Shown here: positions 52,877 through 60,078 of the stretch, piece after piece
Layout: every line of letters begins with the position of its first letter
How positions within the stretch are numbered: position 1 is the stretch's first letter
DNA from: Actinomycetospora succinea
Lineage (GTDB): Bacteria > Actinomycetota > Actinomycetes > Mycobacteriales > Pseudonocardiaceae
Reading direction: 5' to 3'
NCBI RefSeq assembly: GCF_004363095.1
Contig: NZ_SNYO01000002.1
Span: 310,001 to 374,000 of the forward strand
DNA length: 64,000 bases
Program-made: the position numbers and the translations under genes
The notes under the pieces: generated by a model
The model's database searches: none
What the model saw: only the letters and a program-made list of their open reading frames with translations
Told to the model about the DNA's origin: nothing

Positions 52877-55570
<2,694 letters not shown>

Positions 55571-55675
55571 GTGCTGCGTCCTCGTCCCCCGGTAGTCCGA
55601 CCGTGGAACTCTGGCACGCGGCGCCCCCGCCGGACACGTCCGAGCGGCCCGGCCTGACCGGTCCAGTGGGCGACG

Positions 55676-56311
55676 TCAGTCTCTTGACACCAGCCGCTTG
55701 CGGGCCCAGTCGTGGTACCAGGACGGCAGGCCGGGGGCGTCGAGGAGACGCGCCGCGCGGTGTCTCTCGTGGTGGTAGATGGTGAAGACGTCGGTGACGG
55801 TGGGGGCGTCGTCCTGTCTTTGCGTGACGCTGAGCGCGTCCCCGGCCGTGATCGTGCCGGTGGTGACGACGCGCAGGTAGACGCCGGGGCGGTCGGCGGC
55901 GACGAAGCGTCGCGGCATCGTGGGGTCGCCGGCGCGCAGGCCGAGCTTGAAGCAGGGGATGCGCGGCTGGACGACCTCGAGCTCGGCGGTGCCGATCCGC
56001 CAGCGCTCGCCGATCCGCGCGTCGCGCAGGTCGTAACCGACGGTGGTCAGGTTCTGGCCGAAGACCAGGTCGTCGACGTCGCCGAGCTCGGCGCGCCACC
56101 AGGCGAGGTCCTCCTCGCCGTACGCGTAGACCGCCTTCTCCGGGCCGCCGTGGTTCTTCCGGTCGGCCTGCTCGTCGCCGACGAGGTTCTCCGGGCCCAC
56201 CTCGACCGGTCCGTCGACCGGTTCCTTCCAGATCGCGGTGCTGGTGGTCTCGCCCGGCCGGGGTCCCGGGACCTCGCGGGGGCGGCCGAGGGCGATCGTC
56301 CGGACCTTCAC
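55676..56311 (-). CDS. MOSC-domain protein (YiiM-like)
   Basis: 211 residues from GTG 56311, overlapping the mftF stop (GTGA), so the two are translationally coupled. MOSC features: AIWKEPVDGPVEVGPENLVG, DEQADRKNHGGPEKAVYAY, and FGQNLTTVGYDLRDARIGER ... VVQPRIPCFKLGLR with the conserved cysteine. YiiM-type proteins reduce N-hydroxylated compounds with molybdenum cofactor. A MOSC gene coupled to a mycofactocin glycosyltransferase is unexpected; it may be position only. Confidence 0.88.
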   Translation of the reverse strand: MKVRTIALGRPREVPGPRPGETTSTAIWKEPVDGPVEVGPENLVGDEQADRKNHGGPEKAVYAYGEEDLAWWRAELGDVDDLVFGQNLTTVGYDLRDARIGERWRIGTAELEVVQPRIPCFKLGLRAGDPTMPRRFVAADRPGVYLRVVTTGTITAGDALSVTQRQDDAPTVTDVFTIYHHERHRAARLLDAPGLPSWYHDWARKRLVSRD

Positions 56312-57927
56312 TGGGGTGCCTTCCCGGTGAGGTCGGGGCGCAGCGGGGCGAGCGTGCGGTGGCGCCAGGCGCCCCACCAGAGCCCGGCGCCGTAGGCGAG
56401 GTCGTCGAGGCGGTGGGCGAGGAGGTGGCCGAGGGCGTCTCCCGGCCCCGTGCCGGGCTCGCGGTAGCGCCACCAGTCGGCGAGGCCCTCGGCCGTCGCC
56501 GCGAGGAGCAGAGCCCGGCGGACACGCTGCGAGACGAGCGCGCCGACGACGGCCGCGGGCCACCAGTGCCGCGTCAGCGCCCCGGCTGCCTGCCACAACG
56601 CGCCCCCGAGCCCCCACGGCGCGAGCACCGCGGCGAGCCGCGCGGCGCGGAGAAGCTCGCGAGGTGTGTCAGCGTGGCGGCCACGCTGACGTTGAACGTC
56701 AGTTTTTCCGCCCGCTCGATTCTTGGGGCGCCGGGCCTCGTGCAGGCCCTTGGCGAGGCGGACGGTGGCGATGGCCGTCACCCCGCCCGCCGCGACGGTG
56801 CTCCACCGCCGCTGGACGCCCAGGAGCGTCACGGCCGCCGCCGTCCACGGGGCGAGCGCGACCGGCGGCACGCGGCGCGGGTGGCGCAGGGCGAGCGGGG
56901 CGGCGCCGGTCCCGTAGAACGCCTTGCGCGTGAGCCACGGGCCGACGGTGTCGCGGTGCTCGTGGGCGACACGCGAGGCGGGCTCGTAGCGCAACCGCCA
57001 GCCGTCGCCGGCGATGCGCCAGACGAGGTCGACGTCCTCGGCGACGGGCATGTCCTCGGCGAACCCGTCACCGAGGGCCTCGCGCCGCACGACCAGCGCG
57101 GCGCTGGGCACGTAGGCGACCCGCGAGCGCGCGGTCACCGGGGCCGGGCGCGCGCCGAGGTCGAGGCTGGACCGTCGCTCCTCGTAGCGAGCGACCACCC
57201 CGCGCGCAATCGAGCGGGCGGCTTTCCTGACGTTGAGTGTCAGCGTGGCCGCCACGCTGACAACCCCGGGCCTCGCACCGCTACTCGGCGTGTCGCGGAT
57301 CGAGGATGTGGCGAGCCTGGTGTCAGACGCCAGCGATGCCGCATCGCTCGCAACACCGGACCACGCCACGATCCGGGGAGCCGCGAGGCCGACGGCGGGG
57401 TCGGCGAGGTGACCCAGGAGCGGGGCGAGCCAGCCGGGTTCGGGGACGACATCGGAGTCGAGGAACGCCACGAGGTCGCCCGACGACGCCGCGGCCCCCG
57501 TGTTCCGCGCAGCCGCGGGGCCCCGGGACACGTCGTGGCGGACGACGCGCGCCCTGCGAGCCCCGGCGACGCGCTCGGTCCGGTCGGGGTCCGCGGAGCC
57601 GTCGTCGACGACCACCACCTCGCCCACGCCGGTCCCGACCAGCGCGTCGAGCAGGCGCGCGAGCTCGTCCGGGCGGTCGCGCACCGGCACCACGACCGAC
57701 ACGGTCGCGGCGTCCGGCGCGTCGGGATGCGTGGGCGACGGGTGCGCGACGCCGGCGTCGGTGAGCAGCCGGGCGAGCGCCGCGGACGTCGCGTCGGTGA
57801 CGGTCAGCCGAGCCTCGGCGGGGACCCCGGAGGAGTCGGCGAGCCGGTCGTACGCCGCAGCGGACAGGTGCAGCACCCGCGGCGGCGACCCGCCGACCAG
57901 CGTGCGCCCGCCGTCGACGCGCAGCAC
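56308..57927 (-). CDS. mftF: Mycofactocin system glycosyltransferase MftF with palindromic in-frame inserts
   Basis: 539 residues from GTG 57927. GT2 core: ATVSVVVPVRDRPDELARLL, VVVDDGSADPDR, AAARNTGAAASSGDLVAFLD with DSDV, and the later AEDVDLVWRIAGDGWRLRYE. MftF adds beta-1,4-glucose units to mycofactocin. The mycobacterial protein is about 470 residues, from memory. The excess here falls at two places, about residues 180-242 and 400-425, each containing a 55-bp repeated palindromic element. The conserved N-terminal stretch LPTGWSVVLDRR lies upstream of GTG 57927 in frame without ATG, GTG or TTG, so the true start is unsettled. Confidence 0.88.
   Translation of the reverse strand: MLRVDGGRTLVGGSPPRVLHLSAAAYDRLADSSGVPAEARLTVTDATSAALARLLTDAGVAHPSPTHPDAPDAATVSVVVPVRDRPDELARLLDALVGTGVGEVVVVDDGSADPDRTERVAGARRARVVRHDVSRGPAAARNTGAAASSGDLVAFLDSDVVPEPGWLAPLLGHLADPAVGLAAPRIVAWSGVASDAASLASDTRLATSSIRDTPSSGARPGVVSVAATLTLNVRKAARSIARGVVARYEERRSSLDLGARPAPVTARSRVAYVPSAALVVRREALGDGFAEDMPVAEDVDLVWRIAGDGWRLRYEPASRVAHEHRDTVGPWLTRKAFYGTGAAPLALRHPRRVPPVALAPWTAAAVTLLGVQRRWSTVAAGGVTAIATVRLAKGLHEARRPKNRAGGKTDVQRQRGRHADTPRELLRAARLAAVLAPWGLGGALWQAAGALTRHWWPAAVVGALVSQRVRRALLLAATAEGLADWWRYREPGTGPGDALGHLLAHRLDDLAYGAGLWWGAWRHRTLAPLRPDLTGKAPQ
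56667..56721 (-). repeat. Family 3 element copy 1, inside mftF
   Basis: On the minus strand: AATCGAGCGGGCGG, five A, CTGACGTTCAACGTCAG (7-bp arms), then CGTGGCCGCCACGCTGACA. The larger hairpin has 10-bp perfect arms. It is 55 bp long and in frame with mftF, encoding part of KNRAGGKTDVQRQRGRHADT. Copy 2 (57208) has the same parts in the opposite orientation. Confidence 0.88.
57208..57262 (+). repeat. Family 3 element copy 2, inside mftF
   Basis: On the plus strand: AATCGAGCGGGCGG, CTTTC, CTGACGTTGAGTGTCAG, CGTGGCCGCCACGCTGACA. The outer blocks are identical to copy 1 and the length is the same (55 bp), but the orientation is inverted relative to the gene. It reads in frame as SVAATLTLNVRKAARSIA in MftF. 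Confidence 0.88.
57332..57348. repeat. Small palindrome in the mftF insert region
   Basis: AGCGATGC-C-GCATCGCT, perfect 8-bp arms, 70 bp beyond copy 2 in the same non-conserved stretch of MftF (SDAASLASDTRLATSSIRD). Confidence 0.6.
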
Positions 57928-58047
57928 GCGGCGGTCGAGGACGACCGACCAGCCCGTGGGCAGTCGCGAGGGCCGCGCGGGGGCGGCGGTGTCGGTGGAG
58001 GGGGAGGTGGCGATGGCGGGCGAGTCTAGGCAGCGCGGGCGCCCCGG

Positions 58048-58680
58048 TCAGCGACCGAGGACACGTCGCACGTCGTCGTCGGTGAGCTGGCCGAAGTCGT
58101 CGTAGAGGTCGCCCACGGCGCGGAACTCGTCGGGCACGAGCACCGCGACGAGCGCGTCGCGCCACGCACCCAGGCGCCCCAGCGACGGCGGCGATGCCAC
58201 GGGCACCCCGAGCAGCAGGCGCGCGGGGCCGGCCGCCGCGATCGCCTCGAGGGCGGCGAGCACCGTCATCCCGGTCGCGATCCCGTCGTCGACGAGCACG
58301 ACGTCGCGGCTCGGCACCCGGTCGCGCCAGCCCGCGCCGTAGACCGCCTCCCGCCGGGCGGCCTCGGCGCGCTGGGCGGCGACGACGTCGGCGAGCGCGT
58401 CCGGTGTGAGGCCGGCGGTGTCCAGCGCCCGGTCGAACCACACCGGCTCGCCGTCGACCGCGACGGCGCCGAGCCCCGCCTCGGGCCGTCCCGGCGCGGT
58501 GATCTTGCGGGCGACGCCCACGTCGACCTCGGCCCCGGGCAGGAGCGCCGCGGCGGCGACGGCGACCGGCACCCCGCCGCGGGCCAGACCGATCACCAGC
58601 GGGCGGTCGAGGCCCGCGCCCGCCAACCGCTCGCCCAGGGCGCGTCCGGCGGCGGCGCGATCTGCGAACGGGCGTGCCAT
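58048..58680 (-). CDS. Phosphoribosyltransferase-domain protein
   Basis: 210 residues from ATG 58680. PRT type I fold with the PRPP-binding loop VVLVDDGIATGMTVLAALEA and an early PLVIGLARGGVPVAVAAAAL. The middle (GVARKITAPGRPEAGLGAVA) resembles the actinobacterial phosphoribosyltransferases that are often fused to dienelactone hydrolase domains; here there is none. The substrate is unknown. Its TGA is in the same frame as mftF, and no canonical start intervenes until 57927. Confidence 0.9.
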   Translation of the reverse strand: MARPFADRAAAGRALGERLAGAGLDRPLVIGLARGGVPVAVAAAALLPGAEVDVGVARKITAPGRPEAGLGAVAVDGEPVWFDRALDTAGLTPDALADVVAAQRAEAARREAVYGAGWRDRVPSRDVVLVDDGIATGMTVLAALEAIAAAGPARLLLGVPVASPPSLGRLGAWRDALVAVLVPDEFRAVGDLYDDFGQLTDDDVRRVLGR

Positions 58681-58690
58681 CGGCGACAGC

Positions 58691-59125
58691 CTAGGTCGCC
58701 CCGACGATCGACTTGGTGATCTGGCTCAGCGCGACGGGCCGGTCGGGGCCGTCCTCGAGGCTCGCGGTGACGCTGACGAACGCGAGCTCGCGGGCCCGCT
58801 TGGCGAGCGTGCCGACCACGCGGACGCGCGTGCCGGACGCCGCCGGGCGCAGGTACTGCGTCGAGATCTGGTGGGTGACCGCGTGCTGCGCCGGCGTCAG
58901 CGTCGGGAGCACCGCGAGGTACCCGGCGAGCTCGATGGCGGCGCCGAGCGCGGAGGCGTGCGCGGTCGCGGCGGGCGTGACGGCGATCCCGGTGACGGGG
59001 AGGACGACGCCGTCGAGGGGGGCGTACGGGTCGACGAACTCGACGCCCAGCGCGTCGGGGAGCGCCACCGCGAGCGCGGCCTCGGCGCGGGCCAGGAGAT
59101 CGTCGCCGGTGAGCAGTCCGGTCAT
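58691..59125 (-). CDS. Hotdog-fold thioesterase (PaaI/DUF4442-like)
   Basis: 144 residues from ATG 59125. The hotdog helix and strands are recognisable: HASALGAAIELAGYLAVLPT, HQISTQYLRPAASGTRVRVV and ARELAFVSVTASLEDG. Such proteins hydrolyse acyl-CoA or related thioesters. It lies 10 bp upstream of the phosphoribosyltransferase gene on the same strand and is divergent from the ATP-grasp gene. Confidence 0.85.
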   Translation of the reverse strand: MTGLLTGDDLLARAEAALAVALPDALGVEFVDPYAPLDGVVLPVTGIAVTPAATAHASALGAAIELAGYLAVLPTLTPAQHAVTHQISTQYLRPAASGTRVRVVGTLAKRARELAFVSVTASLEDGPDRPVALSQITKSIVGAT

Positions 59126-59202
59126 GCTGCCCGAGTGTCCGCCGGGCCCGTGAACGGCGCGAGGACACGCGCTGTCCGGAGCCCGATCCGCGGGATGATC
59201 GG

Positions 59203-60078
59203 GTGGTGTCCGCGCGCATCGCCCTCGCCACCAGCCGCGAGGTCCCCGGGCTCCTCGACGACGAGGGGCGCCTGCTGCAGGACCGTCTGCGCGCGCTCGG
59301 CGCCGACGCCGAGCCGGCCGTGTGGGACGACCCGGACGTCGCGTGGTCGGCGTACGACCTCGTCCTCGTCCGCTCGACCTGGGACTACGCGCTGCGCCGC
59401 GACGCCTACCTCGCCTGGGCGGACGCCGTCGCGCGGGTGACGGCGCTCCACAACCCGGCCCCGGTGCTCGCGTGGAGCACCGACAAGCACTACCTGCTCG
59501 AGCTCGCCGACGCCGGGCTGCCCGTCGTGCCGTCGGCGGTGCTGGAGCACGGCTCCGACGACACCGACCCCGCCGCGCACCCGTTCCGCGACGTCGAGCA
59601 CGTCGTGAAGCCGTGCGTGTCGGCCGGCTCGAGGGACACCCTGCGCTGCGGCGCCGACGAGGGGGCGCGCTCGGCCGCGCACGTCCGCGCGCTGCTCGAG
59701 GCCGGGCGCCCGGTGCTGGTGCAGCCGTACCTGGCGGCGGTCGACGAGGTGGGCGAGACCGCGGTCGTCGCGATCGACGGGGTGCCGTCGCACGCGGTGC
59801 GCAAGGCCGCGCTGCTGACGCGCGGCGGCGGGCTGGTCGAGGGCCTGTTCGCGCCGGAGGAGATCGAGGCCCGGGAGCCGTCGGCGGTCGAGTCGGCGGT
59901 GGCCGCGCGGGTCCTCGAGCACGTGGGCCCGCAGCTCTACGCGCGCGTCGACCTGCTGCCCGGACCGGACGGCCCGCAGGTGCTCGAGGTGGAGCTCGCC
60001 GAGCCGTCGCTCTTCCTGCAGCACGCGCCGGGCGCCGCCGACCGGCTCGCGGCCGCGGTGGTGCGCAGGCTCAGGTGA
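59203..60078 (+). CDS. ATP-grasp family ligase-like protein
   Basis: 291 residues from GTG 59203 (GTG 59206 is an alternative). The N-terminal preATP-grasp part has YDLVLVRSTWDYALRRDAYL, the ATP-grasp core has HVVKPCVSAGSRDTLRCGAD and PVLVQPYLAAVDEVGETAVV, and metal ligands lie in RVDLLPGPDGPQVLEVELAE. It resembles the RimK/DcsG-type proteins common in actinobacteria with no assigned substrate. It is embedded in the opposite direction between the mft genes and overlaps mftE by 8 bp at the 3' ends. Confidence 0.88.
   Translation: MVSARIALATSREVPGLLDDEGRLLQDRLRALGADAEPAVWDDPDVAWSAYDLVLVRSTWDYALRRDAYLAWADAVARVTALHNPAPVLAWSTDKHYLLELADAGLPVVPSAVLEHGSDDTDPAAHPFRDVEHVVKPCVSAGSRDTLRCGADEGARSAAHVRALLEAGRPVLVQPYLAAVDEVGETAVVAIDGVPSHAVRKAALLTRGGGLVEGLFAPEEIEAREPSAVESAVAARVLEHVGPQLYARVDLLPGPDGPQVLEVELAEPSLFLQHAPGAADRLAAAVVRRLR

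Follow-up and report, generated by a model that had tools for sequence, protein, structure and literature searches.

A dispersed REP-like family of 55-nt hairpin elements in Actinomycetospora, with copies in frame in mftF and other genes

A dispersed family of short hairpin elements populates the genomes of Actinomycetospora, and it is very probably a REP-like family that colonises genes in frame. The wider statement, in which the family colonises proteins in frame and its members are also replaced in place, we regard as likely when taken as a whole. Three units of this family lie within mftF, the mycofactocin glycosyltransferase gene of Actinomycetospora succinea, in a window of 64 kb (the whole stretch of DNA that was analysed). 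The features are given below, with residues numbered along the mftF frame as read from 58014.

56308..58014, minus strand: mftF, mycofactocin glycosyltransferase frame with a putative start, host of three units (TIGR03965, PF00535)
57209..57263, plus strand: unit 1, type A, 55 nt, antisense to mftF, about residues 251-269 (R2 73.4 bits, E 9.2e-16)
57264..57298, plus strand: 35-nt spacer inside the A-B composite of units 1 and 2, with spacers of similar length in other A-B tandems of this genome
57299..57353, plus strand: unit 2, type B, 55 nt, in tandem with unit 1, about residues 221-239 (R2 61.1 bits, E 8.9e-13)
56666..56720, minus strand: unit 3, type A, 55 nt, sense to mftF, about residues 432-450 (R2 68.8 bits, E 1.2e-14)

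The units in mftF and the fold of the element

The mftF frame scored 447.7 bits against TIGR03965 in a profile search (cut-off 280). A repeat search delimited inverted arms of 55 nt at 56667-56721 and 57208-57262, which are 85% complementary. A preliminary description of this DNA had reported two inverted 55-bp elements in mftF. These are real, 55 nt long, inverted and compatible with an intact frame, but their number has to be corrected to three, the unit at 57299-57353 having been missed, and units 1 and 2 together make up the larger insert of 145 bp. In a search of the 64-kb window with the covariance model R2, the three mftF units alone exceeded 60 bits; nine other matches up to E = 1 reached at most 24 bits, and two of these are the opposite strands of named units. 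An earlier model, R1, whose automatic structure held only 6 pairs, was set aside for R2.

At the protein level, MftF had been described as about 70 residues longer than its mycobacterial homologue, and the excess over MftFs of other genera indeed amounts to 76 residues at the two sites. Between fixed anchors, site 1 comprises 64 residues here and site 2 comprises 51; the corresponding values in other genera are 15 and 24, each in 59 of 65 MftFs. Both insert positions are empty in all 65 of these orthologues (15-24 residues between anchors at site 1, 23-25 at site 2). The added residues are therefore not a property of all orthologues, and the DNA of the two sites is similar. Overall, the coded stretch comes to 18-19 residues per unit and 48 for the composite, at positions that are empty in orthologues of other genera, as tested for MftF. 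In an AlphaFold2 model of MftF built with 33 sequences (mean pLDDT 85.8), values below 50 are predicted for residues 1-13 and 222-267, the latter being the sole internal low segment and matching the element-coded stretch of about 221-269; residues 431-450 at site 2 are predicted at 62-66. The model fits a picture in which the element-coded stretches would be flexible loops on a sound fold.

The length of the unit was determined on the copies in this genome. R2 gave 123 matches. Before classification we removed 15 of them, namely 12 duplicates on the opposite strand, one match truncated where its locus ends and two of unusual length. Among the 108 that were left, one place had been counted in two overlapping loci, so that 107 distinct copies were examined. 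The unit is exactly 55 nt long in 103 of them, and the copies align without gaps across these 55 nt. Each unit folds as a single imperfect hairpin, with compensatory changes in support. The layout of outer stem, 3x3 internal loop, inner stem and small loop was seen with RNAfold in many examples of types A, B, C and D, several of the 28 typed examples folding otherwise. The separate small conserved hairpins of the preliminary description did not survive this analysis, as the folds show one long imperfect hairpin instead.

In 45 selected copies, 82.4% of the cells were paired compared with 74.5% after shuffling (0 of 500 shuffles as high), a figure that favours the structure since this was drawn from folds of these same sequences. 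In the same copies, 55 cells were changed on both sides vs 26.5 in shuffles and the covariation score was 0.257 vs 0.134, neither value being reached in 500 shuffles, and versions of the structure with slid partners left 26-52% of the cells paired. Two of the five covariation measures were close to the shuffles, i.e. pairs changed on both sides (8 vs 7.2) and further pair types (19 vs 19.2). In a larger set of 132 unique copies, 84.8% were paired vs 75.2% shuffled. A weak test, the symmetry score of whole inserts, gave z > 3 in 14 of 51 stretches. G-U pairs are frequent in the stems, and the stems covary.

Some copies deserve separate mention. The element in the methyltransferase gene of one congener (G200, locus L204, 2064-2120) is so symmetric that R2 matches it on both strands, with 58.6 and 52.4 bits. 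Five copies (L006, L022, L031, L035 and L040) resemble chimeras in which the first half is of type B and the second of type A, which would fit recombination between types within the hairpin.

The element had been described as open in both directions, and one forward and one reverse phase are indeed free of stops in all 104 exact-length rows, which represent 103 distinct places. Two more phases are stop-free in 89 and 79 of the 104 rows, and the last two in 32 and 43. At 65% GC, such openness in both directions would need no special selection. Forward phase 0 is stop-free in 104 of 104 rows and is used by 0 of 9 in-frame units here, these numbers being small.

Spread of the family and its gene context

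With up to 3 mismatches allowed, a core palindrome of 25 nt was located 59 times in the genome, which measures 6.47 Mb in 23 contigs, vs 0 for a reversed control, so that the similarity goes beyond chance. A second sequence type, B, was found at 40 sites in this genome vs 0 for the control. All 18 Actinomycetospora genomes gave R2 matches, 49-147 per genome and 1964 in total at E <= 0.01, with 150 candidates scored per genome; these figures are matches rather than exact copy numbers, since some places match on both strands (12 of the 123 matches in this genome). In a draw of 200 genomes from the family Pseudonocardiaceae, the core pattern was present in five, all of them among the 10 genomes of the own genus, and in 0 of the 190 others. 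The palindrome centre differs between species.

Across the order, R2 matched this genome and 3 of 149 others, the latter with one match each (E about 3e-4, 33-34 bits), and these three matches look like ordinary high-GC coding sequence. At E <= 0.001, no match was found in 18 MftF loci of other genera. The searches of the genome and its relatives that had been suggested thus describe a family that is dispersed, present in high copy and restricted to the genus within the genomes searched. A known structured RNA family was considered and rejected: in Rfam searches of five element loci no match reached its gathering score, the one match (mir-4859) standing at 28 bits vs a gathering score of 100, and positions 54000 to 60000 of the window gave no match. 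None of the open-licence papers searched described a family of this kind in Actinomycetospora or elsewhere in its order.

Next to this distribution, the gene context was classed using a codon model trained on the window. This gave 72 distinct copy blocks, 38 of them placed and 34 unclear. The placed blocks comprise 18 between convergent genes, 7 between codirectional genes, 4 between divergent genes and 9 in-frame calls. One of these calls (L021) was removed, as it lies upstream of the likely start of a presumed thiolase gene, and in-frame residence then stands at 8 blocks in 7 genes. The hosts are mftF (twice), an AMP-binding enzyme, a THUMP-like methyltransferase, the linker of a [2Fe-2S]-CoxG fusion, a membrane protein (L039) and the genes at L244 and L250, which are presumably a deazaflavin-synthesis radical SAM protein and a family 9 glycosyltransferase, respectively. 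Many copies lie near gene 3' ends, with an excess between convergent genes. Because most placed copies are intergenic and near gene 3' ends, the family acts REP-like first and only second like the RPEs, the palindromic elements of Rickettsia discussed below.

Copies are also arranged with respect to each other. Among 28 neighbour pairs at distances of up to 150 nt, 20 are tandem, 8 head-to-head and 0 tail-to-tail. The spacers of the tandem pairs range from 5 to 81 nt and measure 31-39 nt in 15 of the 20, and 4 of the 8 head-to-head pairs share a 6-nt spacer. A gene carried between paired elements was considered as well, but the ORFs between seven nearby pairs, read by eye, showed no common gene and no parent transposon.

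This context bears directly on the strongest rival explanation, which we consider possible but doubtful. It holds that the elements are functional RNAs, i.e. stabilisers or terminators under selection at the 3' ends of transcripts, with the coding copies as by-products. The 18 convergent blocks among 38 placed, vs 4 divergent ones, speak for it, as do the frequent G-U pairs, the covarying stems and the presence of a family member after era in 14 of 18 genomes. However, it leaves unexplained why palindrome centres are species-specific, why in-frame copies reside in seven genes and why unrelated loci share sequence at 90% identity or more. A functional RNA role is compatible with the main reading, that of a REP-like family colonising genes, as a secondary role; the intergenic copies probably act as RNA hairpins at transcript 3' ends.

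Occupancy and turnover at fixed sites

MftF is present in 17 of the 18 Actinomycetospora genomes, and the MftF locus scan covered the best 80 of 539 loci, 15 of them from Actinomycetospora. In 16 MftF rows of the genus, site 1 spans 17-64 and site 2 28-65 residues between anchors. Whether sister lineages lack the inserts had been raised as a check; they are lacking in other genera, but other Actinomycetospora species also have inserts at these places, often of another type, so that the mftF sites are not simply recent insertions of A. succinea.

The occupancy of individual sites varies within the genus. In the case of mftF site 1, elements occur in one clade of 9 genomes out of 17, the other 8 being empty, and this genome has its element in common with A. 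lutea (G201). In the case of mftF site 2, 11 of 17 genomes have an R2 match. A full gene for the THUMP-like methyltransferase is present in 17 genomes, of which 11 have an element in it and 6 do not; in A. lutea, the empty site contains short stretches resembling element ends and may thus reflect a deletion rather than a place that was never filled. On the 3' side of era, R2 matches in the 14 genomes mentioned above, and in the AMP-binding enzyme one close relative (G205) has another family member at the same place.

Two further observations concern these sites. Downstream of era, two genomes (L227 in G203 and L224 in G202) have other long hairpins lacking an R2 match where their relatives hold family members. 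At mftF site 2 of G042 and G075 (L058 and L059, about 2000-2054), the insert is a nearly perfect hairpin with at least 21 paired bases, identical over 55 nt and scoring 36.9 bits with R2, and in G042 an 11-nt direct repeat stands on its flanks.

All nine rows at mftF site 1, from eight genomes, are reverse and in one phase, and all ten scored in-frame copies at site 2 are forward and in one phase. In the methyltransferase, five forward copies share the phase of mftF site 2 and six reverse copies share another. A flip about the hairpin axis would give exactly this pair of forward and reverse phases (start phases 1 and 2), which weakly suggests such flips, as flip-compatible phases would be a one-in-two or one-in-three coincidence.

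To describe turnover, changes were counted by parsimony on a tree of 16 genomes based on MftF, methyltransferase and Era cores (1092 columns), some branches of which are weak (lowest support 41). Element types were set at 75% identity, and unmatched tips were counted as empty for occupancy. Among occupied tips, the element type changed at least 3, 7, 6 and 5 times at mftF site 1, mftF site 2, the methyltransferase site and the 3' end of era, respectively, a total of at least 21. Occupancy changes at the same sites number at most 2, 4, 2 and 2, a total of at most 10. Since type changes exceed occupancy changes at these four sites, replacement in place is suggested. With single linkage at 70%, the site copies all merge into one cluster; type counts vary with the threshold, and drift that preserves the fold could account for some of the apparent replacement.

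A second view comes from the closest relatives of the site copies. Of 21 cases, 13 pointed to a paralogue in the same genome and 7 to the orthologous site, while one was tied, in a test that used part of the copies of each genome and 99 rows from this genome and hence leans against paralogues elsewhere. As the nearest relatives are split in this manner, vertical descent and replacement are both present. Altogether there is good evidence that different species have different residents at fixed sites and moderate evidence for the replacement of these residents in place, and we lean slightly towards such replacement as the chief cause of the interspecific differences.

The family would then consist of REP-like, non-autonomous hairpin elements of 55 nt. 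Coding copies would survive where they landed in tolerant surface loops or linkers, frame-breaking insertions being purged, and at an occupied site the resident would, less surely, be overwritten repeatedly by another family member. Such overwriting could proceed by gene conversion, by template switching from one hairpin to another or by insertions that recur at one position. Since almost every member measures exactly 55 nt, exchanging one type for any other leaves the frame intact. A bolder version, which we put forward only tentatively and hold to be rather improbable, sees the units as length-locked, exchangeable cassettes of 55 nt, with the genome's own set continually overwriting the residents and reshuffling the loops of MftF, the methyltransferase and other proteins as well as gene ends, axis flips included.

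Independent re-insertion, in which a transposase or recombinase would insert elements into the same preferred positions separately in each species, would account for several of the same observations, and we judge it unlikely. It could explain why both orientations occur at the methyltransferase site (five forward and six reverse in 11 occupied genomes), why the sister genomes G166 and G207, and likewise G135 and G189, differ there in type and orientation, and why an exact 6-nt spacer recurs in 4 of 8 head-to-head pairs, which suggests a defined unit or target geometry. On the other hand, the scored copies have one orientation at 3 of the 4 sites (in the case of era by reading), the start phases 1 and 2 of the methyltransferase copies are those expected from an axis flip, with the chance of coincidence given above, no Y1 transposase was found in the 18 genomes and no common gene was recognised by eye in the ORFs between the seven nearby pairs.

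Relation to known repeat families and meaning

In PMC3733652, REPs are described as short, many-copy hairpins that are mostly intergenic, between convergent or unidirectional genes, and that form head-to-head dimers, fall into species-specific subtypes, have G-T pairs in their stems and include in-frame intragenic copies. The paper also mentions one case, recB of two Xanthomonas species, with different REPs at about one site. On this description the Actinomycetospora units resemble REPs by their high copy number, their mostly extragenic location near gene 3' ends, their head-to-head dimers, their in-frame copies and their species-specific subtypes. In contrast, the REPs described there are 20-40 bp long with one stem of 8-9 bp, whereas here the unit has 55 nt and combines two stems with a 3x3 internal loop. 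The main text of PMC3733652 contains neither the word stem 'actinobacter' nor 'actinomyc'.

A classical REP with GTAG/CGTC ends, mobilised by a RAYT that is now lost or missing from the draft assemblies, we hold to be very unlikely. The dimers, 3'-end location, intragenic copies and subtypes just listed match the description in PMC3733652, and TGTC, a listed variant of the CGTC tag, stands near the end of the other strand in 35 of 104 rows. Yet GTAG or CGTC was found in the first 8 nt of 0 of 104 rows, and on the other strand CGTC occurred once and GTAG 0 times. The Y1/RAYT transposase (PF01797) was detected in 0 of the 18 Actinomycetospora genomes, compared with 5 positive genomes among 14 controls, and the 55-nt unit with two stems departs from a single stem of 8-9 bp. 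Spread of the family by RAYT is thus not supported, and its original spreader would not have been a Y1/RAYT transposase of the present genomes.

The preliminary description had likened the elements to RPEs, which are presented in PMC10969869 and PMC3733652 as palindromic elements of about 150 bp in Rickettsia, located in frame in unrelated metabolic genes and tolerated there. The comparison proved apt: the family is palindromic and dispersed, is in frame in seven unrelated genes, and its mftF positions are empty in 65 of 65 orthologues of other genera. The two differ in that RPEs have about 150 bp and belong to Rickettsia, while the present units have 55 nt and belong to an actinobacterium, the likeness being one of description, and in that the protein positions in Actinomycetospora hold different family members in different species. 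The units also resemble MITEs in being small, non-autonomous, dispersed and sometimes in frame; as to MITE features, no parent transposon was seen by eye between the seven nearby pairs, and the flanks in G042 offer one possible 11-nt direct repeat. The reading as ordinary variable loops whose DNA is similar by chance, which would suit host positions that are predicted loops, is ruled out for practical purposes by the 59 places vs 0 in the control, the genus-wide R2 matches and the empty positions in 65 of 65 MftFs of other genera.

According to PMC10969869 and PMC3733652, palindromic repeats that colonise proteins in frame are known mainly from Rickettsia and some REP-rich bacteria. Actinomycetospora adds an actinobacterial case in which 18 genomes can be compared and the same protein positions are filled by different family members in different species. 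This makes two questions testable: how REP-like elements spread where RAYT is absent, and whether the exchange of repeats alters protein loops over evolution. If the units are indeed exchangeable cassettes, a bacterium would keep rearranging these protein loops in frame through nothing but the exchange of DNA.
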